Below are positions 1,544-40,797 of a stretch of 42,432 nt of DNA, piece after piece; positions within the stretch are counted from its first letter, which is position 1, and the number at the start of each line of letters is the position of its first letter. Location: IMG/VR virus record IMGVR_UViG_3300028840_003441, positions 1 through 42,432 of that record; one strand, written 5' to 3'. Below the pieces are notes generated by a model. The model was not told the origin of the DNA, ran no database searches, and saw only the letters and a program-made list of their open reading frames with translations. A program made the translations under genes and the position numbers. This DNA comes from a virus.

Positions 1544-2262
1544 AACCGTATTATCAAAATGAGTATTGCACCATATATAACGCGGACGCGCGTGACTGCG
1601 TGAGCAGACTAAGCGACATAGAACTAGTATTGACTGACCCGCCTTACTCTAGCGGCGCGCGTCGCGACGCATCGAAAAGCGCGCGTGGGGCAATGCTGCG
1701 TGGTGCCGCGCACAAGGAGAATTGGTTTTCTCATGACAATATGACGTCATGGGGTTTTCAATGGTTCTTACGCTCTTTTTTGTCGGCACTAATGCCTAAA
1801 GTGTCGTTAGGCGCTCACTTTTATGTGTTCACGGATTGGAGAATGACACCCACTGTATATGGTCTACTAGAATCCGTTAACTTACGCGTGAACCATTGTT
1901 TAGTATGGGATAAAAAAGTTTTTGGTATGGGCTCAAATTGGAGAAACCAACACGAAAACATTGTCTTCGCTTCGCTAGGTAAACCGCGTGCGATGGCGCA
2001 CCGTAACAGGGGCACCGTGCTAGGCTTCAAGGGCGTGCATCACGCAAAAAAGCAGCATCCAACAGAAAAGCCGATAGATTTACTTTTTGACATCGTACAA
2101 GCTACGGGCATGAACAACATTCTAGACCCTTTCATGGGTGTAGGTTCTACGCTTGTGGCATCTATGATATTAAAAAAGCGAGTTGTTGGCATCGACTTGA
2201 GCGAGCCTTACTGTGAAATAGCAGCGAATCGCCTTGAAGACGTACGAACTAAACTTGCATGA
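1540..2262 (+). CDS. DNA methyltransferase (N6-adenine/N4-cytosine type)
   Basis: This is an S-adenosylmethionine-dependent DNA amino-methyltransferase. The catalytic motif TDPPY lies at residues 32-36, a conserved HPTEKP at 173-178, and the AdoMet-binding motif DPFMGVGST at 196-204. DPPY preceding the FxGxG motif indicates the beta class. At 240 residues it is compact but complete. No restriction endonuclease lies beside it, so it is an orphan enzyme, probably protecting phage DNA from host restriction; the target sequence cannot be read from the gene. The gene is richer in CTA, ATA and other A/T-ending codons than the polymerase that follows, which suggests separate acquisition. It overlaps the previous gene by four bases. 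Confidence 0.93.
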   Translation: MKPYYQNEYCTIYNADARDCVSRLSDIELVLTDPPYSSGARRDASKSARGAMLRGAAHKENWFSHDNMTSWGFQWFLRSFLSALMPKVSLGAHFYVFTDWRMTPTVYGLLESVNLRVNHCLVWDKKVFGMGSNWRNQHENIVFASLGKPRAMAHRNRGTVLGFKGVHHAKKQHPTEKPIDLLFDIVQATGMNNILDPFMGVGSTLVASMILKKRVVGIDLSEPYCEIAANRLEDVRTKLA

Positions 2263-2273
2263 AAGGAGACAAA

Positions 2274-4193
2274 GTGAAAACGACAGCGATCGACAACGAA
2301 ACCTTTCTAATCACGCGACAGCGCCCGCTACCGACCGTCGTGTCGATCGCTGCATTCGATGGCGAGCGTTGCGACCTACGAACCAACGATTTTGAAACCT
2401 ATCAGTGGCTAATTGACACGCTACAAGACAAGGAAATCGGGTTCGTAGGTCACAACATTGCCTACGACTTCGGCACGATCGCGGCCACGTGGCCGCAAAC
2501 GTTGCCGCACATCTTCCGAGCCTACGAGCAAGGGCGCGTGACCGATACCGGGATACGTCAACAGCTCTTTGACATCGCCTTCGGCCGCGTGTTCGCTGAC
2601 GACAAATTGGCCGCCTATTCGCTGGCGAGTCTCTATGAGAAGATTTTCGACAAACAACTCCCGAACAAACACAGCATTTTAGACGACCCGAGCAACCCGC
2701 GCTACAACTACGGCAAGCTCTACAAAGTACCGCTCTCGGAGTGGCCGAAAGAGTCGATCGAGTATGCGGAAAAAGACGCGATCGTCACGTGGGAAATTTG
2801 GAACGAACAAAACAAAGTTGCCGACCTCCTACGCGATGACGCCTTCCAAGCCTATTCCGCCTTTTGCTTGTCCCTGATTTCCGCGTATGGCATGAAAACG
2901 GACCCTGTTCAGACCGAGCGCCTGCGCGCGAGCATGGAAAGCAAAATGAAGGAGCTCGAGCCCGAGCTCATCGACGCGGGCTTGCTCGAGTGGGACAAGC
3001 GAAACCAAAAATTCATCAAAAAGCAACAGCCCGCGCGCGAGCGCATTGTCGCGGCTTGTGAAGCTCGCGGCGTCAAGCCCCTCTTGACGAAGAAAAAACA
3101 GATTCAGATCGACAAAGCCGCTTGCTACTTTTCACAAGACGAAGTCATGCTCAAGCGGGCGAAGTACTCGACGTGCGAGAAGATTCTCAGCACCTACGTC
3201 TCGTTCATTGAGAAGGGGTATGTGTTGCCCGTGACGACCCGCTTTCACTTGGCCGCCACGGGGCGCACGACGTCGAGCGGGCCCCGCCTTCCCTTGGTAG
3301 GCGGGAACCTTCAAAATCAACCGCGTGGGGGCGGTCCCGATGCCGACATTTTGCCCTTTGGCAATACGCCGCGCGAGTGCTTCATTCCCCGCCCTGGTAA
3401 GGTGTACCTAGCGGGCGATTTCTCGGGCGCGGAGCTCCACGCCTTGGCGCAGGTCTGCAAATACAAGCTCGGATACTCCGTGCTCGGCGACGCGCTGCTC
3501 GCCGGTAAAGACGTTCACTTGCTCGTTGCCGGCAAGGCCCTTGACATGCCCTACGATGACGCGCTCGAGCGTTACAAGGCCGGCGACAAAGAGGTCAAGC
3601 AGGCGCGGCAAGACGCGAAGCCCGTCAACTTCGGCATGGCGGGCGGTATGGGCCCCGCAACTTTTATCAAGATTCGGTTGAAAGACGGGCAGTTTTGGAC
3701 GTACGAGAAAACGGTCAAGCTCAAAAACGCTTGGCTCGAAGCATTCCCCGAAATGACGGACTACTTCAAAGCCTGTCAAAAGGAACTTGGCCCGACCGAG
3801 TCTTCGACCGTCGAGTTTTTCTATACCAAGCGCCTGCGCAAAATCCGCGGCTTCTCAACAATGTGTAACGGATGGTTCCAAGCTTTGACCGCGGACGGCG
3901 CGAAGATGGCGATCAACGAAGTAATACGGCGTTGCTACATTGACCCGCAAAGCGCTTTGTATGGTTGCCGCCCTGTCAACTTCGTTCATGACGAGCTGAT
4001 TTTGGAAGTTCCCGACGACCCGACGAAGTGGCAAGCGATCGCGGACGAATTCGCCGAAACGATGGCGCATGAGTTCAACAAAGTGGTTCCGGACTATCCG
4101 ACGAAGGTCGACGCGGTTCTAATGCGTCGATGGTCGAAGGCCGCCGAGCCCACTTTCGACAACGAAGGGCGGTTGATACCGTGGTCAGACTAG
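2274..4193 (+). CDS. family A DNA polymerase with 3'-5' exonuclease
   Basis: This is the replicative DNA polymerase, 639 residues from the GTG at 2274. That start is chosen because AAAGGAGA lies directly before it; an ATG five codons upstream would place the ribosome-binding site inside the gene. Exonuclease motifs are all present: DNE at 7-9, NIAYD at about 60-64, and YAEKD at 164-168. Polymerase motif A reads DFSGAEL (metal ligand Asp near 382), motif B RQDAKPVNFG (Arg near 445, Lys near 449), and motif C VHDE (Asp and Glu near 573-574). Motif B has Phe-Gly in place of the usual Tyr-Gly, as in other divergent phage enzymes. It acts with the primase-helicase, SF2 helicase and SSB-like protein encoded here. 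Confidence 0.96.
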   Translation: MKTTAIDNETFLITRQRPLPTVVSIAAFDGERCDLRTNDFETYQWLIDTLQDKEIGFVGHNIAYDFGTIAATWPQTLPHIFRAYEQGRVTDTGIRQQLFDIAFGRVFADDKLAAYSLASLYEKIFDKQLPNKHSILDDPSNPRYNYGKLYKVPLSEWPKESIEYAEKDAIVTWEIWNEQNKVADLLRDDAFQAYSAFCLSLISAYGMKTDPVQTERLRASMESKMKELEPELIDAGLLEWDKRNQKFIKKQQPARERIVAACEARGVKPLLTKKKQIQIDKAACYFSQDEVMLKRAKYSTCEKILSTYVSFIEKGYVLPVTTRFHLAATGRTTSSGPRLPLVGGNLQNQPRGGGPDADILPFGNTPRECFIPRPGKVYLAGDFSGAELHALAQVCKYKLGYSVLGDALLAGKDVHLLVAGKALDMPYDDALERYKAGDKEVKQARQDAKPVNFGMAGGMGPATFIKIRLKDGQFWTYEKTVKLKNAWLEAFPEMTDYFKACQKELGPTESSTVEFFYTKRLRKIRGFSTMCNGWFQALTADGAKMAINEVIRRCYIDPQSALYGCRPVNFVHDELILEVPDDPTKWQAIADEFAETMAHEFNKVVPDYPTKVDAVLMRRWSKAAEPTFDNEGRLIPWSD

Positions 4194-4342
4194 AACGCCC
4201 GATAAAAGTACCGCCGCCGAAAAAGCAAAAGAGCAAAGAGTGGGTTTGCTCATACTGCGATGCGCTCAACAGTCACGAGTCACGAGCCGAGCCCTTGACT
4301 AGGTGCTCGAATTGCGGGGCGCCTCGATTGAAGGGAGACTGA
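4181..4342 (+). CDS. small RanBP2-like zinc-finger protein, 53 aa
   Basis: This short protein begins at a GTG that overlaps the polymerase end by 13 bases, with GAAGGGCGG eight bases upstream. It has a basic N-terminus rich in Pro and Lys, then a finger of the form W-x-C-x2-C-x3-N-x11-C-x2-C followed by GAPR. That matches the RanBP2-type zinc finger except for a longer central loop. Such fingers bind single-stranded RNA or protein in cellular proteins; the role here is unknown. The four cysteines and tryptophan are the direct evidence. Confidence 0.65.
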   Translation: MVRLERPIKVPPPKKQKSKEWVCSYCDALNSHESRAEPLTRCSNCGAPRLKGD

Positions 4343-4346
4343 TACC

Positions 4347-4616
4347 ATGGAAGGGCTAGAAAACGATTTTCTAACTTGGCTTGCGCTCTCTAAAGCCGAA
4401 ACAGAAACACAACTAGAAATAACTCTAGAAGAGAACTCGCCGGGCGAGCTAGAGTTTTTCCACCACTTCGCGCACGGCGCAACTAATGTACCGCTAAAAG
4501 TAAACAAGTTTTCCTTTACAATCCTGCGCTTTTTGGAGCGCGAACACGTCGAAAAGGGAATTACCTACACCATAATAATGAAAAGCGACGCGGCGCCGCC
4601 CAAGTGGATTCACTAA
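4347..4616 (+). CDS. hypothetical protein, 89 aa
   Basis: The protein is not recognised. The ATG follows AAGGGAGA. It is acidic (an N-terminal EGLENDF helix, then a Glu-rich stretch), with a beta-like C-terminal half ending in KWIH. There are no cysteine pairs or membrane segments. The gene uses many CTA leucine codons, unlike the polymerase, in common with the methyltransferase and several other small genes here. Confidence 0.65.
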   Translation: MEGLENDFLTWLALSKAETETQLEITLEENSPGELEFFHHFAHGATNVPLKVNKFSFTILRFLEREHVEKGITYTIIMKSDAAPPKWIH

Positions 4617-5448: not shown

Positions 5449-6005
5449 ACGACGAAAAAAGGCCCGTTCAAATAATGCAGCTCGACACGAGCACGGCGAA
5501 GCGCCTTATCAGAAAAGCAATGGAGCAACCGATCGACCTTTTCGGGCACATCGAAGGCCTTGTCGATTGGCTCTACACGAACTTGGTAGAGCACCAAATC
5601 ACGGAATTTACGGACTTGTGGGCAAAGAAAATCGACGCGACCATCGTCAAAAACGAGGGCGACGTCGTGGAGCTCGCTGACTTTCTTTCTACGGCGCAGA
5701 AAAAAGAACTCGCTATAGAGTGGCTAAGCGAAGAAGGTCTTTCTACGGCGCAGAAAAAAGAACTCGCTATAGAGTGGCTAAGCGAAGAAGAAATCAAAAA
5801 ACTTGTCGAGGAATACCTAAGCGAAGACGACGTCGAAGAAATCATCAGCGGCCTAGCTGCGCAAGGCAAAGTGAACCTAATGCGCAAATGGATTGACGAG
5901 CCGACTACAGTTTGCGCGTGGGCCCGACACTTCGACAAAGACACCAAACTACAACTAGTCCACGAGTGGATTGACGAACTGACCAAACAGAAAGGAAAGA
6001 ACTAA
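5445..6005 (+). CDS. acidic helical protein with internal 18-residue duplication
   Basis: The protein is not recognised. It is 186 residues, very rich in Glu, Lys and Leu, and predicted mostly helical. Recurring units ending in EWLSEE, EYLSEDD, KWIDEPT and EWIDELT suggest a helical-repeat architecture of about 18-30 residues. Two consecutive units (LSTAQKKELAIEWLSEE) are identical at protein and DNA level, which indicates a recent tandem duplication. The ATG overlaps the previous TGA. AAAGGA lies 7 bases upstream. There is no enzymatic motif; a protein-binding scaffold role is possible but unproven. Confidence 0.7.
   Translation: MNDEKRPVQIMQLDTSTAKRLIRKAMEQPIDLFGHIEGLVDWLYTNLVEHQITEFTDLWAKKIDATIVKNEGDVVELADFLSTAQKKELAIEWLSEEGLSTAQKKELAIEWLSEEEIKKLVEEYLSEDDVEEIISGLAAQGKVNLMRKWIDEPTTVCAWARHFDKDTKLQLVHEWIDELTKQKGKN
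5684..5790 (+). repeat. two tandem copies of a 53/54-bp unit
   Basis: Bases 5684-5736 and 5738-5790 are identical, at a period of 54 bp, so the reading frame is kept. The perfect identity in a protein with otherwise degenerate repeats points to recent duplication by slippage or recombination. It could also mark a variable site between isolates. Confidence 0.95.
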
Positions 6006-8143: not shown

Positions 8144-8500
8144 CTAAGCGTTATCCAAGTCCAGCTCAATCGAGATTTCGATGTATCCTTCGCGCGGGTA
8201 GTGCTCCTTTTCTCCCGTCGGGAAGACGAGCTCGAATTCGGCCAAGTGTAGGCCGATCTCGGTCGTGTCACCGACTTGCCAGTCGTAGCGAACGATTCCC
8301 GCCGTTGACGGGTCTTCAATGGACGCCGGCGCGTTTACGAGCTCGGTCATGCTCCCGTCGTCATTGACCTTGTACATATGGAAAGAGGCGTTTACCCCGG
8401 TCAACGCCACCGGTTGCCCGTCGGTCTCGCTAATCACGCGCAGGCGCACGGGCTCGCCGGTGTCGTGCCGCTTCATCGGCTTGTGGTATGTTTCAGTCAT
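8144..8500 (-). CDS. Ig-fold baseplate/fibre accessory protein (BppU-N-like)
   Basis: The 118-residue protein follows the pattern of BppU N-terminal-like domains: a polar start, GQPVALTGVNASFHMY, an alanine-rich strand, GIVRYDWQVGDTTEIGLHLAEFELVF, and HYPREGYIEISI. This fold joins receptor-binding proteins to the baseplate in Siphophages and occurs as a single-domain protein in many phages. The position directly downstream of the large fibre gene, overlapping its stop by 8 bases, supports fibre attachment or chaperoning. The assignment is by pattern only. Confidence 0.62.
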   Translation of the reverse strand: MTETYHKPMKRHDTGEPVRLRVISETDGQPVALTGVNASFHMYKVNDDGSMTELVNAPASIEDPSTAGIVRYDWQVGDTTEIGLHLAEFELVFPTGEKEHYPREGYIEISIELDLDNA

Positions 8501-11500
8501 TTTTACCCCTTTTCACTTCGAAATAATCGTCGAGCCGTTGCGTCTCAAACAAACCGTCAAGCCTGCGCATGTCGAAGAAACCGTCGCGCCTCACCACGTC
8601 GAAGGCCTCCACGCTGAGATCGGCCGGCACGGTCACGTCGAGAAGGCCCGCAAGGGCGCTTACCGCGTCTATTTGCCCCTGCAGGGGCACGGGCGACGAT
8701 AGAAGGCCCGCAAGGGCGCTTACCGCGTCTATTTGCCCCTGCAGGGGCACGGTGGCCACCATGGCGCCCGTTATGACACTTTGGGCGTCGACATGCCCCG
8801 CAAGCGTCTTCAATATGAGCAGCGAGCCCGCCAAGGCGCTTTGCGCGTCGACTTGGCCCGAAAGCAGTATCAACTTGAGCAGCGAGCCGGCAAGGGCGCT
8901 TACCGCGTCTATTTGCCCCTGCAGGGGAACCACGGCGGACAGGGAGCCCGCAAGGGCGCTTACCGCGTCTATTTGCCCCTGCAGGGGAACCACGGCGGAC
9001 AGGGAGCCCGCCAAGGCGCCTTGCGCGTCTATTTGCCCCTGCAGCATGACCAGCGTGGACAGGGAGCCCGCCAAGGCGCCTTGCGCGTCTATTTGCCCCT
9101 GCAGCATGACCAGCGTGGACAGGGAGCCGGTAAGGGCGCTTGCCGCGTCTATTTGCCCCTGCAGGGGAACGACGGCGCCCGCCAAGGCGCCAGTTATGAC
9201 GCTTTGGGCGTCTATTTGCCCCTGCAGGAGCACGGTGCCTTCCAAAGCGCCTGTTATGGCGCTTTGGGCGTCTATTTGCCCCTGCAGGGGAACCACGGCG
9301 GACAGGGAGCCGGCAAGGGCGCTTACCGCGTCTATTTGCCCCCGTAGGCCTGCAGCGACCGTCACGGAGCCGGCAAGGGCGCTTACCGCGTCTATTTGCC
9401 CCTGCAGGGGAACCACGGCGGACAGGGAGCCCGCAAGGGCGCTTACCGCGTCTATTTGCCCCTGCAGGGGAACCACGGCGGACAGGGAGCCCGCAAGGGC
9501 GCTTGCCGCGTCTATTTGCCCCTGCAGGGGAACCACGGCGGACAGGGAGCCCGCAAGGGCGCTTGCCGCGTCTATTTGCCCCCGAATGCCAATCAGCTTG
9601 AGCAGCGAGCCGGCAAGGGCGCTTACCGCGTCTATTTGCCCCTGCAGGGGAACCACGGCGGACAGGGAGCCCGCAAGGGCGCTTACCGCGTCTATTTGCC
9701 CCTGCAGGCCTGCAGCGACCGTCACGGCGCCCGTAAGGGCGCTATCCGCGTCTATTTGCCCCGAAAGAAACACGGGCTTGAGCAAAAGGCCTTCTATGGT
9801 GCTTTGTGCGTCTATTTGCCCCTGCAGGAAAACGGTGGCGGATAGGGAGCCCGCAACGATGCTTCGCGCGTCAACGTGTCCCTGCAGAGCTGCAGCGGAG
9901 CACAAACAACCCCATAGATCGCTTTGTGCGTCTATTTGCCCCGAAATCTGTTTCAACTTGAGCAGCGAGCCGGTAAGGGCGCTTGCCGCATCGATTTGTC
10001 CCGAGATTGGCACCGAGTTGAACAACGAGCCTGTAAGGGCGCTTACCGCGTCTATTTGCCCCGATAGGTCTATCGCTTTTAGCAGCGAGCCGGTAAGGGC
10101 GCTTTGCCCTGCGATCTGACCCTGCAGAGCTCTAACTTCGGTAATGGCGCCCGTAATCGCGCTTTGCCCGTTGATCTGGCCAAACATGGGCACGGTAGCG
10201 GACAGGGCGCCTGTAAAGACGCTTGTCGCGTCTATTTGCCCCTGCAGGGAAGTGGTGGCGGACAGGGAGCCCGCGACAACACTTTTTGCGTCTATTTGCC
10301 CCTGCAATGCGGACAACGGCGGCGTAGAATAGGCCAAGCGGAAGCTATACCAAAAATCGGCGAAGCTTCCGGAGTCCGTCGGCCAGTTAGCGGGAAAAAC
10401 TGAGCTTTCTATGCTATTCATGCTCGACGACTGATAACGCCCGCGTGCGGTTTGGAAGTCGCCGCCGCCCGAGTCGCCCGAAAAGGCCACGCCAAAAGAG
10501 CTGTCATTGCCCTTTACGACAATCCACGTGACCGCGTTTTTTGTAAGCGACGGATTTGACGAGCTTAGAAGCGTTTGCCAAGCTTCCGTGTCGCTTCCGG
10601 CTGTCACCCCGAAGTCTTCCACTAAAGACGCCCCGGTCGGGTCAGTCAGCGTGCCGCCTTGGTAGACGGCGACGCGCACTTGCGCGCCATGGCTCGTGCC
10701 ACAATAGACGCTCACGCTTTCTAGTGTCATGTTGTCGACATCGGGCGACGTGCCCCCCATGGCGCGACACCAATTCACTGTAGTAGATTCCGCGTCCGGA
10801 TAGCGCTGGCCCCACTCCTTTTTGATGACGACGGGGAACCCGTAAGCGTTCGCCGACCCGCCGTTCGGCTTCACGTAGAGCCAAAGATTCCCGAGAGTGT
10901 TGGCAAGGCTCTTGGGTATTGTGATGTCAATTTGGGAAGCGCTCCACGAATTGATCGTGCACGTGTCGGAAGTGACCACGGAAGACCATTGATCGGCGTC
11001 GCCTATCTTGACCCACGCGTCGCCTTGGGTCGCCCCGAAAGAGCCGTCGACCTTTATATTTTTCGCGCCCGGAAAGTGGTAGGCATACGCCCAATCAACA
11101 TTCCGCACTTTCTCGATCGTAGACGTTTCAAAGGTCGCATACGTCGACACGAGCCAAGGCGAATCTGACAAGCTAAGTTGCCTTGGCCAATCGCCATAAG
11201 TGAGACTCACGTCGCGCGAATCGCCGAACGAACCAAAGTCATAATAGACGTCGATGACGCTGTCGCTCCAAATCACGTTCGTATAGTAGAGATACTGTAG
11301 CGCGGGTTTGGGGTCCGAAAAAGTGAAGGTTGCCCACTGCGCGCCCGAGTGCCCGTCGGAACGCTCGGCGGTAGATGGCGCTTTGAGATTGTTGTCGGCT
11401 CCCGTGACGAGCGCCATTTTCACTTTGTCGCCGCTTGACCAACTACCGATGTAGGCGTGAAGACTCGTGACGATACCGCGCCCCGGCGACGCAGGGCGGG

Positions 11501-12302
11501 CGTAAGTGCCTTGAATACGATCATCGCCGAACGTGGAGAACGAGCCCGCCGTCGTGTAGCCGAAAGTGGGGTCGATGCGCACGGGTAAAACCGCTCTTTT
11601 TGCGAACTCTGCAGACCCCGTCACGGTAACAGTTTTCTTTTCCGTGTCGACGTCCAGATCTGCCCACTCCCAAGCGCCCTTGGCGTCGATTACCTTCGGG
11701 CGGCGCAGGCGACCCACGCACCCCGATTTGTACTTCGCGCCGTCGGCTTCTGACATTACCGCGGGCAAATCTTTGCGATAGATGGCATATGAGTTGAGAG
11801 CTTCGGGCGCCCAAAATTCGACTTGCTTGCCTTTGGCGTCATAACCCCCGAACTCGTCACGACTCGCCACCGAGCCTATAAGAGGCGCGTTCAAAATATC
11901 TTGTTTGAAGAACGCTAGGTTGTCACTGTGCTCGAGATTCCAAGCGTAAGTGAAACCGCCCGAAAGCGGTTTTTCATAGACGACCGCTTCGAGCTCGAAA
12001 AGCCCCTCTTCTTGCTCGTGGTTTTCGCTTTCGTCTAATGGGTATAAGTGGTGCGCTTCTTTCGCGTCGTCGGAGTCGACGACCACTTTGTCGATTTTGC
12101 TGTCGCCGAGCTCCGCGGGCGTTTTTTGGGTGTACGCTTTTTGAGGCGAAAGCGAAATCCAACATTCGTCGCCCCACTTTTTAAACTTGACTTTTGGAGA
12201 GAAGAAAGCGAGCGCAGCGTCGCCTATTTCGACTTTGCAGTGCTTGTTAAAGTCGACGTTGTAGCGCGCTGCGCTCTCCTTCGTGATAGATGCCGCGGTC
12301 AC
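8493..12302 (-). CDS. giant tail fibre with 28 GQIDA repeats, 1269 aa
   Basis: This is the largest protein in the genome and probably the main tail fibre. The only reasonable start is a GTG eight bases after the preceding gene. Residues 1-250 form a mixed domain ending in the LPVRIDPTFGYTT motif seen in other phage fibre proteins. Residues ~255-395 and ~500-660 look like beta-sandwich modules (YYTNVIW; VRVAVYQGG and WIVVKGN). Residues ~410-493 resemble an IPT/TIG domain. Residues 666-1226 are 28 consecutive 20-residue repeats (one of 21) with core L-x-GQIDA-x-SALAGSL. The last 43 residues are charged (FDVVRRDGFF, MRRLDGLF), suggesting a small trimerising or adhesive tip. The regular repeats suggest a beta-helix or shaft; that is inference. 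Confidence 0.85.
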   Translation of the reverse strand: MTAASITKESAARYNVDFNKHCKVEIGDAALAFFSPKVKFKKWGDECWISLSPQKAYTQKTPAELGDSKIDKVVVDSDDAKEAHHLYPLDESENHEQEEGLFELEAVVYEKPLSGGFTYAWNLEHSDNLAFFKQDILNAPLIGSVASRDEFGGYDAKGKQVEFWAPEALNSYAIYRKDLPAVMSEADGAKYKSGCVGRLRRPKVIDAKGAWEWADLDVDTEKKTVTVTGSAEFAKRAVLPVRIDPTFGYTTAGSFSTFGDDRIQGTYARPASPGRGIVTSLHAYIGSWSSGDKVKMALVTGADNNLKAPSTAERSDGHSGAQWATFTFSDPKPALQYLYYTNVIWSDSVIDVYYDFGSFGDSRDVSLTYGDWPRQLSLSDSPWLVSTYATFETSTIEKVRNVDWAYAYHFPGAKNIKVDGSFGATQGDAWVKIGDADQWSSVVTSDTCTINSWSASQIDITIPKSLANTLGNLWLYVKPNGGSANAYGFPVVIKKEWGQRYPDAESTTVNWCRAMGGTSPDVDNMTLESVSVYCGTSHGAQVRVAVYQGGTLTDPTGASLVEDFGVTAGSDTEAWQTLLSSSNPSLTKNAVTWIVVKGNDSSFGVAFSGDSGGGDFQTARGRYQSSSMNSIESSVFPANWPTDSGSFADFWYSFRLAYSTPPLSALQGQIDAKSVVAGSLSATTSLQGQIDATSVFTGALSATVPMFGQINGQSAITGAITEVRALQGQIAGQSALTGSLLKAIDLSGQIDAVSALTGSLFNSVPISGQIDAASALTGSLLKLKQISGQIDAQSDLWGCLCSAAALQGHVDARSIVAGSLSATVFLQGQIDAQSTIEGLLLKPVFLSGQIDADSALTGAVTVAAGLQGQIDAVSALAGSLSAVVPLQGQIDAVSALAGSLLKLIGIRGQIDAASALAGSLSAVVPLQGQIDAASALAGSLSAVVPLQGQIDAVSALAGSLSAVVPLQGQIDAVSALAGSVTVAAGLRGQIDAVSALAGSLSAVVPLQGQIDAQSAITGALEGTVLLQGQIDAQSVITGALAGAVVPLQGQIDAASALTGSLSTLVMLQGQIDAQGALAGSLSTLVMLQGQIDAQGALAGSLSAVVPLQGQIDAVSALAGSLSAVVPLQGQIDAVSALAGSLLKLILLSGQVDAQSALAGSLLILKTLAGHVDAQSVITGAMVATVPLQGQIDAVSALAGLLSSPVPLQGQIDAVSALAGLLDVTVPADLSVEAFDVVRRDGFFDMRRLDGLFETQRLDDYFEVKRGKND
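8625..10307 (-). repeat. 28-unit tandem repeat, 60-bp period
   Basis: Twenty-eight in-frame units of 60 bp (one of 63) fill the C-terminal 44% of the fibre gene. Most carry the palindrome CCTGCAGG at the same place (the LQG codons) and an invariant GACGCG core for Asp-Ala. Some adjacent units are identical over 60 bases (9001-9060 and 9061-9120), while the outer units (toward 10300) are more diverged. Identity at DNA level shows recent expansion by recombination or slippage. Confidence 0.97.
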
Positions 12303-12310
12303 TCGGTACC

Positions 12311-12715
12311 CTAGTCGAGCGTGCAGTCATAGTCACCGATCGCGAAGCTGGGAGTATCGCCGCTGTCAATGGTCTTGCTCGCGGCCAAAGCGGCGTATCC
12401 GAGCATGTTACCACCGGACGCAGCGTCCATCACGGCGAAGTATGTAACCGTGCCCCACGACGCCGTGGCCGTCGGGAACGTGATCGCAACAGCGTTCGAG
12501 ATGGCGCCCCCGGAAGCGGCCGGGAAATTGGTCGTGTTCGCCGCCATATTCGCGCGCGCGTAGGCGCCGCCCGATGGCTCGGTCATGCCCGTGCCGTCGT
12601 CATTGATTGTCGTGGTCGACAGCGCAAAATAAAGATTCGTGGGGCTCGTGAACGTCGTCTGGTTGTGGACGTGGTCCAAAAGCTTGTTTTCTAGATAATC
12701 TGCGAAAGAACCCAT
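12311..12715 (-). CDS. conserved phage structural protein, tail-fibre associated, 134 aa
   Basis: The protein begins MGSFADYLENKLLDHV, then has LYFALSTTTINDDGTGMTEP, YARANM, a FP-x(5)GG-x2-SN-x-VAITFP strand and a C-terminal DTPSFAIGDYDCTLD. This is a very common single-domain phage protein family found beside tail-fibre genes or in head-tail regions and usually left unnamed. It is beta-rich with no enzymatic motif. The start ATG is preceded by GAAAGGAAAA on the minus strand. An exact structural role is unknown; a fibre-tip or collar component is likely from context. Confidence 0.72.
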   Translation of the reverse strand: MGSFADYLENKLLDHVHNQTTFTSPTNLYFALSTTTINDDGTGMTEPSGGAYARANMAANTTNFPAASGGAISNAVAITFPTATASWGTVTYFAVMDAASGGNMLGYAALAASKTIDSGDTPSFAIGDYDCTLD

Positions 12716-31524: not shown

Positions 31525-31740
31525 TTACTCACTTTTTAGTAGCTCTTCTAAAAATGCAATTCTAGACGTTAACTCCGCTCTTTCTACTTCTAGTTTTACT
31601 AGCTCCTCTAGCGTAGCCCTGCGCGCTTCAAGTCTCTCTACATCTTCTCTTAAAGCGCTCTCACCTTCTTCTTCTATGGCTTCAAGACACGCTGGACAAA
31701 AGCGCATATAAAACTCGTCTTCGCATCTCTCACATTTCAT
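31525..31740 (-). CDS. zinc-ribbon plus coiled-coil protein, 71 aa
   Basis: The N-terminal CERCEDEFYMRFCPAC is a CxxC-x9-CxxC zinc knuckle. The remaining ~50 residues are a Glu/Leu-rich coiled coil (LEARRATLEELVKLEVERAEL). The ATG overlaps the terminase stop. The gene is notably rich in CTA codons and CTAG tetranucleotides compared with the terminase, suggesting insertion as a small accessory gene. The function is unknown. Confidence 0.7.
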   Translation of the reverse strand: MKCERCEDEFYMRFCPACLEAIEEEGESALREDVERLEARRATLEELVKLEVERAELTSRIAFLEELLKSE

Positions 31741-33242
31741 CTTCCACCCCTTGCGGCCGCCATCGCGGCTTTTAGTCTGTCAATGCTCTTTCTATAGAGT
31801 TCGTTTAGTGCCTGCGTAGTCGCGTCGACTTGGTCATCGTTGAGACCGGACGGGAAAGCGACCATTTCTTCCTCATACTCTTTAATCCATGGCGCGATGC
31901 TCGGGTCGGGCAAATACACGTTACCGGCATCGAACAAGGGCTCGACAGCGTTCGCCCGCGCCTCTTTCCCGCCTTGCGGGTTCACTAGCTTTAGCCCCGG
32001 TATCTTCTTCTTTAGGAGCGCCACGACCGCGGGCCCGTTCGCCTTGTCTTCCACGAGCTTGCTTACCGCTTTCGGATAGCGCTTGGTCATCTTCTCAATA
32101 GCGCGACACGTTGCGCTAACGTTCAAACGGCCGCGCGTTTGCGCTAAAAAGTAGTAATCGCCCTCATAGATGCCCCATACTTGCCCGACGACGAAGTCGC
32201 TTGTATCTAGGTCTTTAAAAGTACAGTCCCAAGATTGAATCATTTGCGTGCACGGCGGACGCTTCGTGTAGTGCTTGAACTTCTCACGCTTGAAAAGGTT
32301 CCCGCTTGCCGGTGTCGGGTCTTGTTGCAACTGCGCCGCCGTGCCCCTTGGCCCGAGCTCCTCTTTCAACTGGTCAACGGCTTCGCGTGGATAGCGCACG
32401 GGGTCAAGCAGTTCGCCCGCTTCCGTTCTCGGGTCCGGCTCGCCAAGGCACGTCATGCACTTGCGCTTGGGCTCATACTCCATTGGTAAGCAAAGATGCT
32501 CATAACCGCCCGCGCGCAGCATCTCGCCCGCGAGGTCGCCCATGTGAAGCCGTTGCATAATGATGATTCGCGCGGATTGCTGCGCGGACACCATACGAGT
32601 GGCCATTGTGTCATTCCACCAAGTCAAAACGCGCTCGAGTGCGGTCTTTGATATAGCCAGCGAGCCCGTGACTTCGAGCGGCTTCAATGGGTCGTCTACC
32701 ACTTGGATATGGGCGTGCTCGCCAGTGACCCCGCCCTTGATTGAAGTGATGAGACGGAAGCCGCCCTCGTTCGTGTGAAAGATTCTCGATGAGTCTTCGG
32801 CCTTGTCTCGCCTCGTGTCAAGTATCCGGTATCGGTAGCCCCATCTCTCTTGATACCAGTCTGACCCGATGAGACGCCGGCATTTCCGACTATCCCTTCG
32901 CGAAAGCTGGTCATTGTAGCAAGCGTAAATAAAGCGCGTTTGTGGCTCCTGCGTCCACGCCCACGTAGGAAAGAACACCGAACACGTCAACGATTTCATT
33001 GTGCCGGGCGGAACGTTAATGACAAGGCGCCTTATTTCGCCGTCGAGCACGGCTTCCAAATGCTCGCAAATCGCATCAATATGCCAGTTTGAAACGTAAA
33101 TGCTGCTCGGCTCGACTTCATCCCATGCGGCCTTGATATAGTGGCGCAAACCTCGGTTCGCGAGCTCGTGTTCGATAGTGGCGAGACTCGCCATGCTAAG
33201 AAGCTCGCTCACTTGCTCTTGACTGATAAAAGGTTCACTCAT
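31737..33242 (-). CDS. terL: terminase large subunit
   Basis: The 501-residue ATPase-nuclease packages the genome. Walker A is NVPPGTMKS (76-84), Walker B IQVVDDP (179-185), and the RNase H-like nuclease triad appears in SWDCTFKD (337-344), VEDKANG (397-403) and DDQVDA (469-474). Length and order are those of a full-length phage terminase. A CMTC near residue 262 is an extra cysteine pair. Its ATG overlaps the stop of a 28-residue upstream membrane peptide gene, so translation is coupled. Confidence 0.95.
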   Translation of the reverse strand: MSEPFISQEQVSELLSMASLATIEHELANRGLRHYIKAAWDEVEPSSIYVSNWHIDAICEHLEAVLDGEIRRLVINVPPGTMKSLTCSVFFPTWAWTQEPQTRFIYACYNDQLSRRDSRKCRRLIGSDWYQERWGYRYRILDTRRDKAEDSSRIFHTNEGGFRLITSIKGGVTGEHAHIQVVDDPLKPLEVTGSLAISKTALERVLTWWNDTMATRMVSAQQSARIIIMQRLHMGDLAGEMLRAGGYEHLCLPMEYEPKRKCMTCLGEPDPRTEAGELLDPVRYPREAVDQLKEELGPRGTAAQLQQDPTPASGNLFKREKFKHYTKRPPCTQMIQSWDCTFKDLDTSDFVVGQVWGIYEGDYYFLAQTRGRLNVSATCRAIEKMTKRYPKAVSKLVEDKANGPAVVALLKKKIPGLKLVNPQGGKEARANAVEPLFDAGNVYLPDPSIAPWIKEYEEEMVAFPSGLNDDQVDATTQALNELYRKSIDRLKAAMAAARGGR

Positions 33243-33325
33243 AACGCGTCATCGTCATCGAAAAAGAGCCAGTAAACCAAAATGATCAAAGCCACAATCC
33301 CGCCTATCATAATGTCATAAGTCAC
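33239..33325 (-). CDS. 28-residue membrane peptide between TerS and TerL
   Basis: A GTG start preceded by GGGGAGCGAAA opens a 28-codon frame, too short for ordinary gene finding. The peptide has a polar N-terminus (VTYDI), one hydrophobic segment (MIGGIVALIILVYWLFF), and an acidic end (DDDDAL). Its stop overlaps the terminase ATG (ATGA), and its start overlaps the TerS end by 11 bases, so it fills the gap exactly. Hydrophobicity, a ribosome-binding site and tight coupling support a real gene. A single-span membrane role (holin, antiholin or lysis regulator) is inference. Confidence 0.6.
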   Translation of the reverse strand: MTYDIMIGGIVALIILVYWLFFDDDDAL

Positions 33326-33869
33326 TTTCGCTCCCCTCTTTTTTCTTGAGCTTCTTATACATAACCTGCAGCATTTCGAGTTCGGTCACGTCAAGATTTT
33401 TAATGTCCGGCGGCGTCTCTTCTACCGTGGCCACAATCTCTCGGGGTTGCCCTCGGTTCAAGCGTTCTTGTTCGGCGCCCTGCTTGAGATACTCGAGCGC
33501 GAGCTTGGGGTCGATGGCTAAAGACTCTTGTTTTTCCGCATGCGCGAGCAGTTTCTCGATCTCGGTCTCGCCCAATTTTTGGAGCTTTAAGGCGGTCTCA
33601 ATGTGCCGCTTGCGCATCTTCTCGATCGCTTCGAGCTCCGCGCGCCTTTGGGCGGCTTCGTTCTCGCGGTCGTAGATTAAAACGCGTTGCTTCCAATTGT
33701 GCTTTAACGCCCACTTTGAGATCTGTTGCGGTGTTTTGTTAACCTCGCGCGCAACTTGCATGTATTGTCTATTAGAGCCCAAATTGCGGTAAATAAGGAA
33801 AGCCGCCCACGCTTCCGGCCCCTCATTCGCCTTGCGAAAGTAGGGCTTTATTTTAACGTCGCTTCTCAT
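33315..33869 (-). CDS. terS: terminase small subunit (HTH type)
   Basis: The 184-residue protein has an N-terminal helix-turn-helix-like region (AFLIYRNLGSNRQYMQVAREVNKTPQQISKWALKHNWKQR), typical of phage TerS proteins that recognise the packaging site. A long charged helix and a C-terminal helical domain follow. The ATG overlaps the previous TGA. The pair TerS/TerL flanks the small membrane peptide. Confidence 0.84.
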   Translation of the reverse strand: MRSDVKIKPYFRKANEGPEAWAAFLIYRNLGSNRQYMQVAREVNKTPQQISKWALKHNWKQRVLIYDRENEAAQRRAELEAIEKMRKRHIETALKLQKLGETEIEKLLAHAEKQESLAIDPKLALEYLKQGAEQERLNRGQPREIVATVEETPPDIKNLDVTELEMLQVMYKKLKKKEGSESDL

Positions 33870-34072
33870 CGGACCCACTCCGCGAGCCACTCGACAACGA
33901 GCAAGAGGAGCATTCCCGTCAATATCCCGGTCAAGAAAGTCTTGCGCAGCGTGTTCTTTATCAGGAGCGGGAGCGCCGCGCGCTTCGCGGCTTCGATACC
34001 GACCGCGACGTCTTGCGCGCGCTTGTGGCGTTGAAAGAGCGTTTCTTTTGGTTTTATCGTTCGCTTGGTCAT
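33866..34072 (-). CDS. small membrane protein, 68 aa
   Basis: A basic N-terminal half (KRTIKPKETLFQRHKRAQDV) precedes one strongly hydrophobic helix (FLTGILTGMLLLLVVEWLAEWV). The stop overlaps the TerS start by four bases. The single C-terminal membrane segment and small size are compatible with a holin or membrane-anchored packaging/entry factor, but no family is recognised. Confidence 0.65.
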   Translation of the reverse strand: MTKRTIKPKETLFQRHKRAQDVAVGIEAAKRAALPLLIKNTLRKTFLTGILTGMLLLLVVEWLAEWVR

Positions 34073-34407
34073 CGTCTCTCTTTCTCCTCGACTATTCTAT
34101 CACAGTTTTTCTTGACCCCTTTCAGCGGCATCCACATCGACACCGGAATCCGTAGATCCATACCATCGACGGGCTTGCTCTTGTCGAAGAAGGCCTCGAT
34201 CACTCCCGACACCGACTTCGCCAGCGTCACGAGTTCGTCTTCCAAGTCGGCGTAACATCTTTTATGTCTGTTCATAAACTCGTTTTGACGTTCTCGGTAT
34301 CGCCAAAGAGTGCTATTCACTCTTTTCGTCAAGTCCTCCACTTCCGCCTTTAACTGCGAGAGCTCCTTCCGCGTCACGGGCCCATTAAATTTTCGTTCTT
34401 CGCTCAT
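34069..34407 (-). CDS. hypothetical coiled-coil protein, 112 aa
   Basis: This is the first gene of the packaging/structural operon after the non-coding repeat region. The ATG is preceded by AAAGGGGCG. Residues ~10-45 form a charged helix (TRKELSQLKAEVEDLTKRVN) followed by an Arg/Asn-rich stretch and a C-terminal basic end. It overlaps the next gene by four bases. No family is recognised; it may regulate packaging or lysis. Confidence 0.65.
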   Translation of the reverse strand: MSEERKFNGPVTRKELSQLKAEVEDLTKRVNSTLWRYRERQNEFMNRHKRCYADLEDELVTLAKSVSGVIEAFFDKSKPVDGMDLRIPVSMWMPLKGVKKNCDRIVEEKERR

Positions 34408-34735
34408 AAAGCGCCCCTTTCTCCGTTTTTCGCTCCTACATGTCGCACAAACACCTACTTTTCAGATCGCCGTTTTTAACGCGCCTGGAATTTTACGTGT
34501 ATACCTGTAAAACGGCCGTTTAGCGAAAAAATGAACGGCCCTAAACAAGTTTAGTAGTTCCGCGCACTTACGGCCCGTCGGGCCGTTCGGGCCGTTTAAA
34601 TCCCTATTTCGCCATAAAAAACACGATATAAATATCCTACTATATCCTACCACTACATACATTCTACTTCCCAGCCCTACTAAATAGCGTAAATGAACGG
34701 CCAAACGGCCTTTTCGGCAAAAAAGACGCGTCATT
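34408..34735. other. non-coding segment; candidate replication origin
   Basis: This 328-base gap between the primase and packaging genes holds no convincing gene; the minus-strand frame crossing it is repeat-driven. It contains many AACGGCC/GGCCGTT motifs in both orientations, one 7-bp stem (ACGGCCC-GTC-GGGCCGT at 34570-34586), and an AT-rich block at about 34597-34693 with a direct repeat TATCCTAC. Iterons beside an AT-rich unwinding-like region and a primase-helicase gene are features of origins. It may also hold the promoter for the late operon; no clear -35/-10 was found. Confidence 0.5.
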
Positions 34736-34797
34736 TTAGTCACTTGCTTCACGGCCGTTCGCCGAAAAAGTAACGGCCCGCGAACGGCCAAACGGCC
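34511..34797. repeat. GGCCGTT/AACGGCC motif cluster
   Basis: At least eleven copies of ACGGCC or its complement occur in 287 bases: palindromes at 34511-34520 and 34751-34758, single motifs at 34534, 34570, 34581, 34590, 34696, 34704, 34772, 34783 and 34791. Pairs are spaced 8-11 bases apart. The last group lies inside the coding end of the primase gene. Confidence 0.9.
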
Positions 34798-37237
34798 CAC
34801 TTGTATCGGCTACCGAAACTTTAAAGACTTTTTTAACGGCTTCTTTTAAGTCTTCCCACGTGTAGCGATCGGTATTTTCGATAAATCGCTTTAATGTAAC
34901 GTGGTCAATCTTCCAAGCTTTTAACTTTGTTTTACTCGCTCTTTCTTCCGAATCCAGCTTAAAACCCGCCTTCGTCAAGTAGCGTCCGATCGTAGTCGGA
35001 GCCGGTTTTTTGACTCGGGAGCCCGCCACGACATTGGACTCGCCCCAAGCGGCGTTGATTCGGTCGGGCGAGATGCGAAGCTGGCCTTCGGAGTCGCAAA
35101 CCAGGGGCAAGCGGTCGATTTGCCCGGGCACGGAGTGATTGCATTCTTCCATGAGGCAATCGAGGGCAATCATTAGGCAGTAGTTCAAGGTCTCATCGGC
35201 GAAGCGAGCCCGCCAAACCATGTCGAGGTCGCTCGCGGTGTTGACCCAAAACCGGCCTTGACTCTCGTGCGTGGTGTTCTCTTCAATCCAGCGCACGTGC
35301 TCGAGCAAGCCCGCGCCTTCGCGGAGCCGCTCGAGCTCCTCAGTCCCCGCCCACTTCTCCTCAAAGCGTTCAATCACACGCTTCCGGATGCGCAGCACCA
35401 AAAACCGAATCATTGTGGCTTCGACCGAAGACGCGTCAACTTCCGCGGAAAACACCTTCTCCTCTTCATTGACGCTTATTACGTGACGAGTGCAAGAGAA
35501 CAGCGTCAAGGGGTCAACGCCTTTCATTTCGACCATATGTACGCGCTCGGAAATCGACTCGCGGTAGCGCTCCGGAATCCCGTGTTCGCCCCTGTCGGAA
35601 GCGAGTTTCTCATCGGACCATATGACGGGGTTTTGAAGCAGGGGAGCGGCGAACTTGAAGAGAACTTTTTCGGGGCGGCACGGTGTCGGCGCGTCGCGAT
35701 GCCCCCAAAAGCGGGAAAGGGCTTGGGCGATCTGGGACTTCCAAACCCCTTGCGTGCCTACCAGGGTCAAGGCGGGCAAGGGCTGGTCAAGGTCCCGAAA
35801 CTTGTACAAGTAGGACTCCAAAAGGTCGTATTTGCTCCCGCCAATCGCCCGCAAGAGCTCATCGCAACACGCCGAGAAGCGGGGTTCCCATTCAATCCAC
35901 TTGTAAGCCTGCAGCCGGATAGCGTTCTCTTTCCCGTCGTAGGCCACGCCATTGCACCGCGCGTAGTACTGGACGGCGCCGACCGTGCACCCATACTCGT
36001 GATTCAACTTTCCCGCCGACTTCAAGCCGGGCGGGCCATTGACGTTTCGAAAGTCGAGCTCGGAAACGCCGGGCATTGCCCCCAAACACTCGCGAAACGC
36101 GATCGGCACTTGCGCCGCCTTGAAGGGCCCCTGATAGGCGGCCTTGTAAGGGGAATAGACGTAATAGGACGAACCATAAGACGCCACGAGCGCCCCGCGT
36201 AGGCCTTCGACGTTCGCGATTTGGTCTTCATTCAACGGAGCCGCGGCGCTCGGGCGGACTCGCTCCCGCTCCGCGTCCATTTTGAGCAGCTTCGCTCGAG
36301 CGGAATCGACGCACTTGACCCAATCGCCGAGCCGATACTCCCACTTGGACTCGCCCGGCTCCGTGGCCGCCCACGAGACCCGCAAGTGCTGCTCGGCGAA
36401 CCACTCCGCGTCAATCTCCCGCCATTTCCGGACGCACTCGAAGGCGAGCTTGACCCGGATGTCGTGCAAGACTCCGCGTGAGCCGTAGGCGTCGCCCTTC
36501 ACGGCCGCCTTCAAAGCTTCGCCGGCGGTGCGCTGCGCCCGATTCTTCCGCTTGAGCAGCCACTCGGCGAACGCCTTGACTTCTTTTCGGTCGGGCCTAT
36601 CCGAGAGCGCCATCGCCCCCCTTGACGGCACCAAGGCCGCCGGCGACTCGTAGGGCATCTTCGCGAGCTCGCCCACGTCAAGAGCCTTGCCCCGAAAGCG
36701 CAGGCGCTCGACTTGGTCTTTCGTGTCCGGCATGTGTTGCGGGCCAAGAAAAAAGTTCGCGACCTTTAGAGTGACCGGGTCGTGAGAAACGCCAAGCAAG
36801 CGAGCGCCCGCCGCATACAACGACTTGAAAGGCAAATCACTGACATTCGGCACCGCTTTGGACAAGCGCACGAGCAAGCGCAAGCGGGGCGCCTTCTCGG
36901 TGTGCTTCCAAGTCGAATAGACGGCGCAGTCATACTCACGCCAGCGCACCGCGGCCGCCCGAACTTCCGCCCGCGTCATCGAATCGATGTCATAGACAAA
37001 AACATCGGTGGCGGAATCTGGCGCGAGTTCCGAATTGTGCTTCGATTTCGCGCTCGGCTTGTACCGCCCGCAAACGAAGCCCAAACCATTGAGCTTTTCG
37101 CGTTTGCTCGAGCAAGCTACCGACGGCCACTTCTCCGCGTCGCCCACGTAGTCGAGGAAGCCGCCGGCGTCAAGCTCGGCGACTTTTGCCCCGTCGGGCG
37201 TGTCATAAACCCCGTTCAAAAAGGTAATCCAAGCCAC
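34736..37237 (-). CDS. primase-helicase (AEP primase plus D5/VirE-like ATPase)
   Basis: This 833-residue protein is read from a GTG preceded by AGGGGG, 14 bases after a small regulator gene; a longer frame to 37357 is covered by that gene. The N-terminal part has DVFVYDID (DxD near 83-85) and KAPRLRLLV (about 115-123), as in archaeo-eukaryotic primase domains. The C-terminal part carries an SF3/D5- or VirE-like ATPase: LVGTQGVWKS (Walker A, about 492-501) and NPVIWSDEK (Walker B, near 538-544). The residue before the Walker A lysine is Trp rather than Gly. The C-terminal residues (TSGPFGRSRAV ... ANGREASD) are encoded by GGCCGTT repeats. It provides primers and unwinds DNA for the family A polymerase encoded here. 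Confidence 0.85.
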   Translation of the reverse strand: MAWITFLNGVYDTPDGAKVAELDAGGFLDYVGDAEKWPSVACSSKREKLNGLGFVCGRYKPSAKSKHNSELAPDSATDVFVYDIDSMTRAEVRAAAVRWREYDCAVYSTWKHTEKAPRLRLLVRLSKAVPNVSDLPFKSLYAAGARLLGVSHDPVTLKVANFFLGPQHMPDTKDQVERLRFRGKALDVGELAKMPYESPAALVPSRGAMALSDRPDRKEVKAFAEWLLKRKNRAQRTAGEALKAAVKGDAYGSRGVLHDIRVKLAFECVRKWREIDAEWFAEQHLRVSWAATEPGESKWEYRLGDWVKCVDSARAKLLKMDAERERVRPSAAAPLNEDQIANVEGLRGALVASYGSSYYVYSPYKAAYQGPFKAAQVPIAFRECLGAMPGVSELDFRNVNGPPGLKSAGKLNHEYGCTVGAVQYYARCNGVAYDGKENAIRLQAYKWIEWEPRFSACCDELLRAIGGSKYDLLESYLYKFRDLDQPLPALTLVGTQGVWKSQIAQALSRFWGHRDAPTPCRPEKVLFKFAAPLLQNPVIWSDEKLASDRGEHGIPERYRESISERVHMVEMKGVDPLTLFSCTRHVISVNEEEKVFSAEVDASSVEATMIRFLVLRIRKRVIERFEEKWAGTEELERLREGAGLLEHVRWIEENTTHESQGRFWVNTASDLDMVWRARFADETLNYCLMIALDCLMEECNHSVPGQIDRLPLVCDSEGQLRISPDRINAAWGESNVVAGSRVKKPAPTTIGRYLTKAGFKLDSEERASKTKLKAWKIDHVTLKRFIENTDRYTWEDLKEAVKKVFKVSVADTSGPFGRSRAVTFSANGREASD

Positions 37238-37251
37238 GGCCGCCCCCTGGT

Positions 37252-37428
37252 TTAATGTAGATGTTGACGTATTAACGACCGGATTACGTGCGAAACGGAA
37301 GCCTCGATCACTCCTTCTTTTCGAAGCCGCTTTAACTCTTTGACGATTGACGCCCACTCACTTCGACCGAGTATAACGGCGATTCGCCGCTTGGGCGCTC
37401 TACTGTTCTGCAATTGTAAACTTGGCAT
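37252..37428 (-). CDS. 58-residue ribbon-helix-helix-like regulator
   Basis: A frame of 58 codons starts at an ATG preceded by ATGGGGTAAAAC and ends 14 bases before the primase GTG. After a basic start, the sequence gives a strand RRIAVILG, a helix WASIVKELKRLRKEG and a second helix SVSHVIRSLIRQHLH. This strand-helix-helix order is typical of CopG/MetJ-type dimeric DNA-binding proteins. It overlaps the upstream gene by 29 bases in another frame. It probably controls the divergent promoter region directly upstream. Confidence 0.65.
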   Translation of the reverse strand: MPSLQLQNSRAPKRRIAVILGRSEWASIVKELKRLRKEGVIEASVSHVIRSLIRQHLH

Positions 37429-40566: not shown

Positions 40567-40797
40567 ATGCCAACCGAAACCCATTCAACGGGCGTCTTGT
40601 GCTCGGCTTGCGGAAAAAGCGCCTATGCGGTCGACATCGATAAGATTACCGTCGTGATCGAAGTGCGCGACCTCGTAGGCCTGCGCGCATGGTGCCCGAA
40701 TTGTGGGATTTCCTATGACATTGAATGGTTAAAGCGAAATAGCAAACAACTTTGTCAAATCCTGCGCTTCGATTTGTTTGAACCATGGCGCAAGTGA
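40567..40797 (+). CDS. zinc-ribbon protein, 76 aa
   Basis: ATG follows GAGGTAGCC, two bases after the nuclease stop. Two CxxC pairs, CSACGKSAY and CPNCGISYDI, about 30 residues apart, make a rubredoxin-like zinc ribbon. Between them are two beta strands (ITVVIEVRDL). The function is unknown. A close neighbour in the operon, the next gene, also has a zinc site. Confidence 0.72.
   Translation: MPTETHSTGVLCSACGKSAYAVDIDKITVVIEVRDLVGLRAWCPNCGISYDIEWLKRNSKQLCQILRFDLFEPWRK

Follow-up and report, generated by a model that had tools for sequence, protein, structure and literature searches.

An AACGGCC iteron array at the 3' end of a putative primase-helicase replicase gene: a probable replication origin in a phage known from metagenomic records

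The stretch of DNA analysed here (the window) is the 42,432-bp virus record IMGVR_UViG_3300028840_003441, which carries a 144-bp direct repeat at both ends, as expected for a circularly assembled genome. In the list of its open reading frames (ORFs), the genes lying between 37.4 kb and about 8.5 kb occupy the - strand. One of them, at 34736-37357 (- strand), encodes an 873 aa protein with PHROG helicase and primase matches and a DUF5906-type core, referred to below as the replicase. A cluster of short repeats at 34511-34797 overlaps the last ~20 codons of this gene and extends through 225 bp of the 328-bp gap that separates it from an ORF of 112 aa without a family match (34069-34407, - strand), which is the first ORF beyond the cluster in the direction of transcription. 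The 112 aa ORF is followed by a 68 aa ORF and then by the genes for the terminase small subunit (33315-33890, - strand; phrog_6299, 3.2e-21) and the terminase large subunit (31737-33242, - strand; identified by a family match). A family-A DNA polymerase is encoded at 2259-4193, and a gene for an N4/N6-type DNA methyltransferase (1540-2262) lies beside it. A perfect 54-bp tandem duplication is present inside an ORF at 5684-5790, and an ORF of 1269 aa (8493-12302, - strand) contains tandem repeats of about 60 bp at 8646-10306. A second record, IMGVR_UViG_3300017963_000421, represents the same virus and is 100% identical to the window except in this tail-repeat region, where the difference (at 8493-12302) is probably one of repeat-copy number or of misassembly; because it is the same virus at 100% identity, this record provides no independent information on conservation.

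Our analyses have identified 13 copies of the word AACGGCC/GGCCGTT in the window, counting both strands, of which 11 (7 on the + strand and 4 on the - strand) are found inside 34511-34797, the first AACGGCC starting exactly at 34511 and the last ending exactly at 34797; the two other copies are located at 22065 and 32126. The shorter form ACGGCC/GGCCGT occurs 25 times in the window and 13 times in the cluster (9 + and 4 -), where these copies represent 11 distinct GGCC centres because two of the sites (at 34512 and 34751) are palindromic (ACGGCCGT). The original prediction for this region, that at least 11 such motifs in both orientations are packed into 287 bases, is thus borne out. The level expected by chance was estimated from 60 order-4 Markov genomes, trained without the region 8.6-10.4 kb, by counting the copies of each 7-mer per 300 bp. 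The densest 7-mer cluster in the window consists of 10 non-overlapping copies, whereas the top cluster of the simulated genomes had 4 copies in 51 of the 60 and 5 copies in the remaining 9, so that clusters of this kind, whose random occurrence would have spoken against the prediction, are absent from them. The motif density had also been claimed to exceed that of the rest of the genome, and the next-best 7-mer clusters of the window reach only 6 copies each; one of these runners-up (ACGGCCC) is a second frame of the AACGGCC cluster itself and the remaining three belong to the tandem repeats at 8.6-10.3 kb. The AACGGCC array is therefore far above chance.

The cluster is divided into two blocks of sites by a central AT-rich core. 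Block A (34511-34597) contains five GGCC-centred sites (at 34514, 34537, 34572, 34581, and 34590), with a pair spaced by 9 bp adjoining the core, and block B (34695-34798) contains six (at 34699, 34707, 34753, 34775, 34786, and 34794), among which are two exact copies of GAACGGCCAAACGGCC (34695-34710 and 34782-34797). Within the blocks, sites are repeatedly placed 8 to 11 bp apart, and the inner pairs that flank the core are inverted relative to each other. A search for the pattern GAACGGCCAAACGGCC in the viral_contigs collection recovered 10 stretches, and two copies were present only in the same virus as the window. The hairpin that had been claimed for the region is real: it is located in block A at 34570-34586 (ACGGCCCG-T-CGGGCCGT) and is made of two repeats placed head to head. 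The replicase gene ends inside block B, its stop being at 34736. The core (34598-34694) corresponds to the predicted AT-rich block of about 100 bases, being 97 bp in length with a GC content of 34% compared to 55.6% for the genome; a 97-bp stretch as low in GC is found at four places in the window, the core among them. Its + strand contains 5 G in 97 positions, the minimum for any 97-bp stretch in the window. We infer that this core is a DNA-unwinding element. The + strand of the core also carries five CTAC words (34637, 34647, 34653, 34664, and 34677; spacing 6-13 bp), which could be putative single-strand contacts for an initiator or primer start sites.

The assignment of the 873 aa ORF as a likely primase-helicase replicase is based on sequence comparisons. 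Residues 84-207 match PHROG families 256 (7.4e-8) and 9765 (1.6e-6), which are named DNA helicase and DNA primase, and residues 532-635 match DUF5906, which we take to be of the SF3 type, with 21 bits against a Pfam cut-off of 27.6. The helicase core was also matched to the DUF5906 protein of Microcystis phage MJing1 (E 8.7e-8 among 24 proteins compared) and to a profile of four DUF5906 proteins (6.2e-10 for one sequence). Both a primase and an SF3-type helicase domain are accordingly assigned to the protein, with DUF5906 below its cut-off and with no match to the Pfam Prim-Pol family. A P-loop-like motif, GTQGVWKS, is present at residues 534-541 (35735-35758), with tryptophan at the usual glycine position; the P-loop pattern was matched in 14 of 24 replicases, with glycine at this position in 12 of them, tyrosine in BF486P3 (GEQGVYKS) and tryptophan in the window, and was unmatched in the other 10. 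The winged-helix domain Pox_D5 was found at the C-terminus in 2 of the 8 proteins scanned (viz. Sfi21 and Javan633), and the Pfam scan of the window replicase detected no winged helix and no match at its C-terminus. The AlphaFold2 models were too poor to reveal such a fold, with a mean pLDDT of 33 for the full replicase (two-row alignment) and of 43 for residues 735-850 alone, and a search of solved structures returned one match, with an E value of 0.63.

Searches for close relatives were carried out in several collections. None were recovered with the replicase in viral_contigs or genome_contigs, and none in the phages collection either by DNA or, at an E value of 1e-5, by protein. When E values up to 10 were admitted, the replicase gave partial matches in 56 phage records, the best among the 20 listed being MJing1 (0.02). 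The DNA polymerase as a query recovered only the same virus. Among records sharing the large terminase, a replicase of this kind was present in one of 8 (G002), and in none of 30 further large-terminase records, in a search run without a positive control. The G002 replicase, which is the best match to the window replicase among those compared, had no match in the phages collection. The AACGGCC cluster itself is seen in no relative because none is close enough, and comparative evidence was therefore sought in the position of clusters of any word.

A first set of five loci (viz. G002, MJing1, NatCom_34192, Pd_22F, and VP5) was scanned blindly for the strongest k-mer cluster. Four of these phages were taken from the loose list (E up to 10), and MJing1, NatCom_34192, and Pd_22F were then confirmed by direct comparison; VP5 is linked to the window replicase through MJing1 only, by a helicase segment in the MJing1-based profile, and Vibrio phages also occur in one of the two lists from which the survey set below was drawn. 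The top cluster was located at the 3' end of the replicase gene in 3 of the 5 (MJing1, NatCom_34192, and Pd_22F) and elsewhere in VP5 and G002. G002 has at most a weak group of five AGCGCC copies past its replicase gene. In Vibrio phage VP5 (locus L103) the top cluster consists of 13 TGGACA copies at 448-748, ahead of the first annotated gene and far from the primase, and is possibly an origin or a promoter array.

A test whose terms were fixed beforehand was carried out on 16 phages, hand-picked for diversity, using flanks of up to 8 kb and k = 6 and 7, with a match defined as a top cluster overlapping the interval from -150 to +600 of the replicase stop. The rule for combining the two values of k was not fixed beforehand, and both counts are reported: 6 of the 16 phages matched by both k and 8 of 16 by either, with words that differ between phages. 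The matches by both k were in Corynebacterium IME1320_01, Paenibacillus Logan, Streptococcus Javan633, Rhodobacter RcBigEagle, Flavobacterium FPSV-F8, and Stenotrophomonas QDWS359, and those by one k in Faecalimonas NatCom_33527 (weak) and Streptococcus D4446. The 8 misses comprise Bacteroides BF486P3, BO668P2, and BU183P1 and Parabacteroides PM116P1 (all four phages of these genera in the set), together with Oenococcus phiOE33PA, Leuconostoc phiLNTR2, Xanthomonas Murka, and Rhizobium RHph_X2_30. The last of these (locus L124) has twelve GGTCCA copies in 0.3 kb at 12159-12451, 2.9 kb past the replicase and near the end of the record, which is possibly a displaced origin. As a control, the 5' end of the replicase gene gave 1 match in 16 (NatCom_33527, weak and by one k). 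The chance of a match per phage is on average 6.8%, and the probability of at least 6 matches in 16 is about 4.5e-4, a value to be taken as a guide only because the phages were chosen non-randomly and some of them are related. Iterons at the 3' end of the replicase gene are hence common in this set and not universal. At locus L031 the cluster lies inside a reading frame which, by eye, looks like an initiator; origin sites inside the initiator gene are the arrangement found in lambda.

This arrangement has counterparts in several well-described systems. In the record of Streptococcus phage Sfi21 the origin (34487-34784) overlaps the end of the primase gene (33367-34515), and our scan applied to this record placed the top 6-mer cluster at the annotated origin and the top 7-mer cluster elsewhere. 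Sfi21 resembles the window in that its origin, 0.3 kb long, extends over the end of a gene encoding a DUF5906/Pox_D5 protein, and in that short repeats of either orientation flank an AT-rich core; however, its word is AGTAAC, it has a separate annotated polymerase/primase gene, and its terminases and cos (40722-40736) are far from the origin. In P4 the crr (4291-4590) lies 45 bp past the end of alpha and consists of two units of 120 bp with five type-1 repeats per unit, so that, as in the window, a two-unit repeat set is located directly past the 3' end of the replicase gene. P4 differs in that it has a separate annotated origin (9086-9809) with the same type-1 repeats, whereas the window has one cluster, and in that its primase is described as being of the bacterial (Toprim) type (PMC4234260). 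MJing1 is the closest to the window in geometry. It shares a homologous DUF5906 core, the gene order from replicase to terminases, and inverted iteron blocks around an AT-rich core with inner sites 101 bp apart; its word, however, is about ACCCTGACC, its annotated gene is shorter (448 aa), and its array is not annotated as an origin. The replicase of pRN1 (orf904) is likewise of the primase-polymerase/SF3 kind and its origin lies just downstream of the gene, but this origin is a 100-nt stem-loop without iterons (PMC4234260). The staphylococcal pathogenicity islands (SaPIs) have a Rep-ori arrangement in which the SaPI5-type Rep possesses primase and helicase domains (PMC7581432); the SaPI is likened to the window on the basis of this published description, and the window is by comparison a 42-kb virus with its own DNA polymerase. 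Among the matches listed in a search of the open-licence PMC literature, there was no survey of a rule placing origins at the 3' end of replicase genes.

Taken together, these results indicate that the region 34511-34798 is in all probability the replication origin of this phage, and by analogy with the systems described above the replicase is presumed to bind it. The region combines an array of one word above chance, a position at the replicase 3' end, and an AT-rich element between two blocks, and we accordingly place it in the class of iteron origins at the 3' end of primase-helicase replicase genes (of the SaPI Rep-ori, Sfi21, and P4 crr type), a kind that is already known. The original prediction of an iteron-bearing origin that has an unwinding element and lies next to a primase-helicase gene accords with most of the comparative evidence (viz. 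the survey, the Sfi21 origin, and the P4 crr). As an alternative to an origin it had named a site bound by the primase. Two points refine this picture: the cluster overlaps the replicase gene, and the part of the protein that probably binds the repeats, by analogy with the SaPI system, is its C-terminal region rather than the primase part (PMC7581432).

The main rival to an origin is a packaging site (pac/cos) whose repeats would be bound by the terminase small subunit, since the gene for this subunit is only 0.6 kb away. Both terminase genes start within 1.3 kb of the cluster in the direction of transcription, and the order replicase, small terminase, large terminase is common to MJing1, Stenotrophomonas QDWS359, and Bordetella BPP-1. 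An array serving packaging should travel with the terminase genes, and in phages whose replicase and terminase genes are separated the clusters are instead found beside the replicase: the annotated terminase is 4.7 kb off in IME1320_01, 5.5 kb in Javan633, 13 kb in NatCom_34192, and about 14 kb, on the other strand, in Pd_22F, and in Sfi21 the annotated origin is at the primase end with the annotated cos 6 kb away. Further, we examined 79 related large-terminase loci, and a top strong cluster within 2.5 kb upstream was found in none of the 49 having that length; among the remaining 30 only one locus (L009) qualifies, with a 12-bp head-to-tail repeat at a contig end. A packaging site is thus disfavoured because the clusters follow the replicase and not the terminase, and we consider this reading unlikely.

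The array could alternatively be an operator or partition site, bound by a regulator of the late operon or by a segregation protein acting in stability. Plasmid iteron arrays also act as operators or centromeres, and the 328-bp gap between the replicase gene and the 112 aa ORF offers room for regulatory DNA. However, the array is located inside a likely transcription unit, as the flanking ORFs share their direction, and away from the divergent region at about 37.4-37.9 kb; no partition gene was found among the window proteins searched (two sets of ten, largely the same); and unrelated words hold the same position in other phages with related replicases. A role of this sort is, on these grounds, quite improbable.

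Bordetella phage BPP-1 (locus L126), which was examined after the survey, has two inverted pairs of TTTGCCTCG (9-bp) around an AT-rich core at 2608-2711, about 0.47 kb past the replicase, with a small ORF annotated on the opposite strand in between; these pairs are a candidate origin for a well-known phage group. For the related BIP-1, called nearly identical to BPP-1, a stem-loop and no iteron origin is reported (PMC4234260). Such a pRN1-type origin, in which the replicase recognises a large cruciform and not iteron words, is very improbable for the window, even though its blocks are partly inverted, its single-strand fold beats shuffled sequences (z -2.22; 2 of 100 shuffles as good) and the pRN1 authors propose a stem-loop for primase-polymerase/SF3/winged-helix replicases including that of BIP-1 (PMC4234260), because the fold is only mildly better than the shuffles, the sites occur in both orientations and at varied spacing as expected of words and not of one stem, iterons are present in place of one long stem-loop without them, and BPP-1, of the same phage group as BIP-1, has the inverted 9-bp pairs described above downstream of its replicase.

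Base skew was examined as a further check on the origin. An inflection of the cumulative GC skew had been sought at the cluster, and one located elsewhere was to count against the prediction. The minimum is indeed elsewhere (at 40.0 kb in the raw and 37.5-37.75 kb in the detrended curve), and in formal terms this result goes against the prediction; however, the test has little power, because at fourfold-degenerate sites the GC skew shows no difference beyond error between five gene groups, and for the same reason the GC skew of the genome as a whole is largely a reflection of the coding strand. The fourfold AT skew is biased towards A on the + strand in each of the five groups, in either gene direction (40 ORFs), which is a hint of one-way replication or of a packaging-linked asymmetry. 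No change of sign is seen at the cluster in either the GC or the AT skew, such as two-way replication starting there might produce. This result does not speak for two-way replication from the cluster; it would be compatible with one-way replication, or with a neutral skew having had too little time to develop.

If the region is an origin, as we propose, initiation could take the following course. The C-terminal region of the replicase would bind the iterons of blocks A and B, two helicase rings would assemble, one on the set of sites in each block, and the rings would melt the AT-rich core between them; the primase part of the same replicase would then prime the exposed strands and the family-A DNA polymerase would extend the primers. 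Because the presumed binding sites are located where the gene of their own binder ends, gene and origin would travel as one replication cassette.

A broader proposition, which we regard as evenly poised, is that a large share of the tailed phages with primase-polymerase/SF3-helicase replicases have a self-contained origin where the replicase gene ends. Each such origin would use a short word of its own, repeated in blocks that are partly inverted and surround an AT-rich core, and the C-terminal part of the replicase would recognise it. Under this proposition the word varies while position and geometry persist, and gene and origin would therefore evolve as one exchangeable cassette. If it is true, origins would become predictable for many phages, including viruses known only from metagenomes, and iterons would replace the published stem-loop proposal for Bordetella-type replicases. 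Should the word prove to vary together with the replicase C-terminus, the phages assembled here would provide material for understanding how these initiators read DNA. The present work offers a testable candidate origin for a virus that is represented here by metagenomic records alone, and it suggests a simple rule for finding origins in phages with this type of replicase, for which the printed or annotated examples are few (viz. SaPI, SCC, P4, pRN1, and Sfi21).
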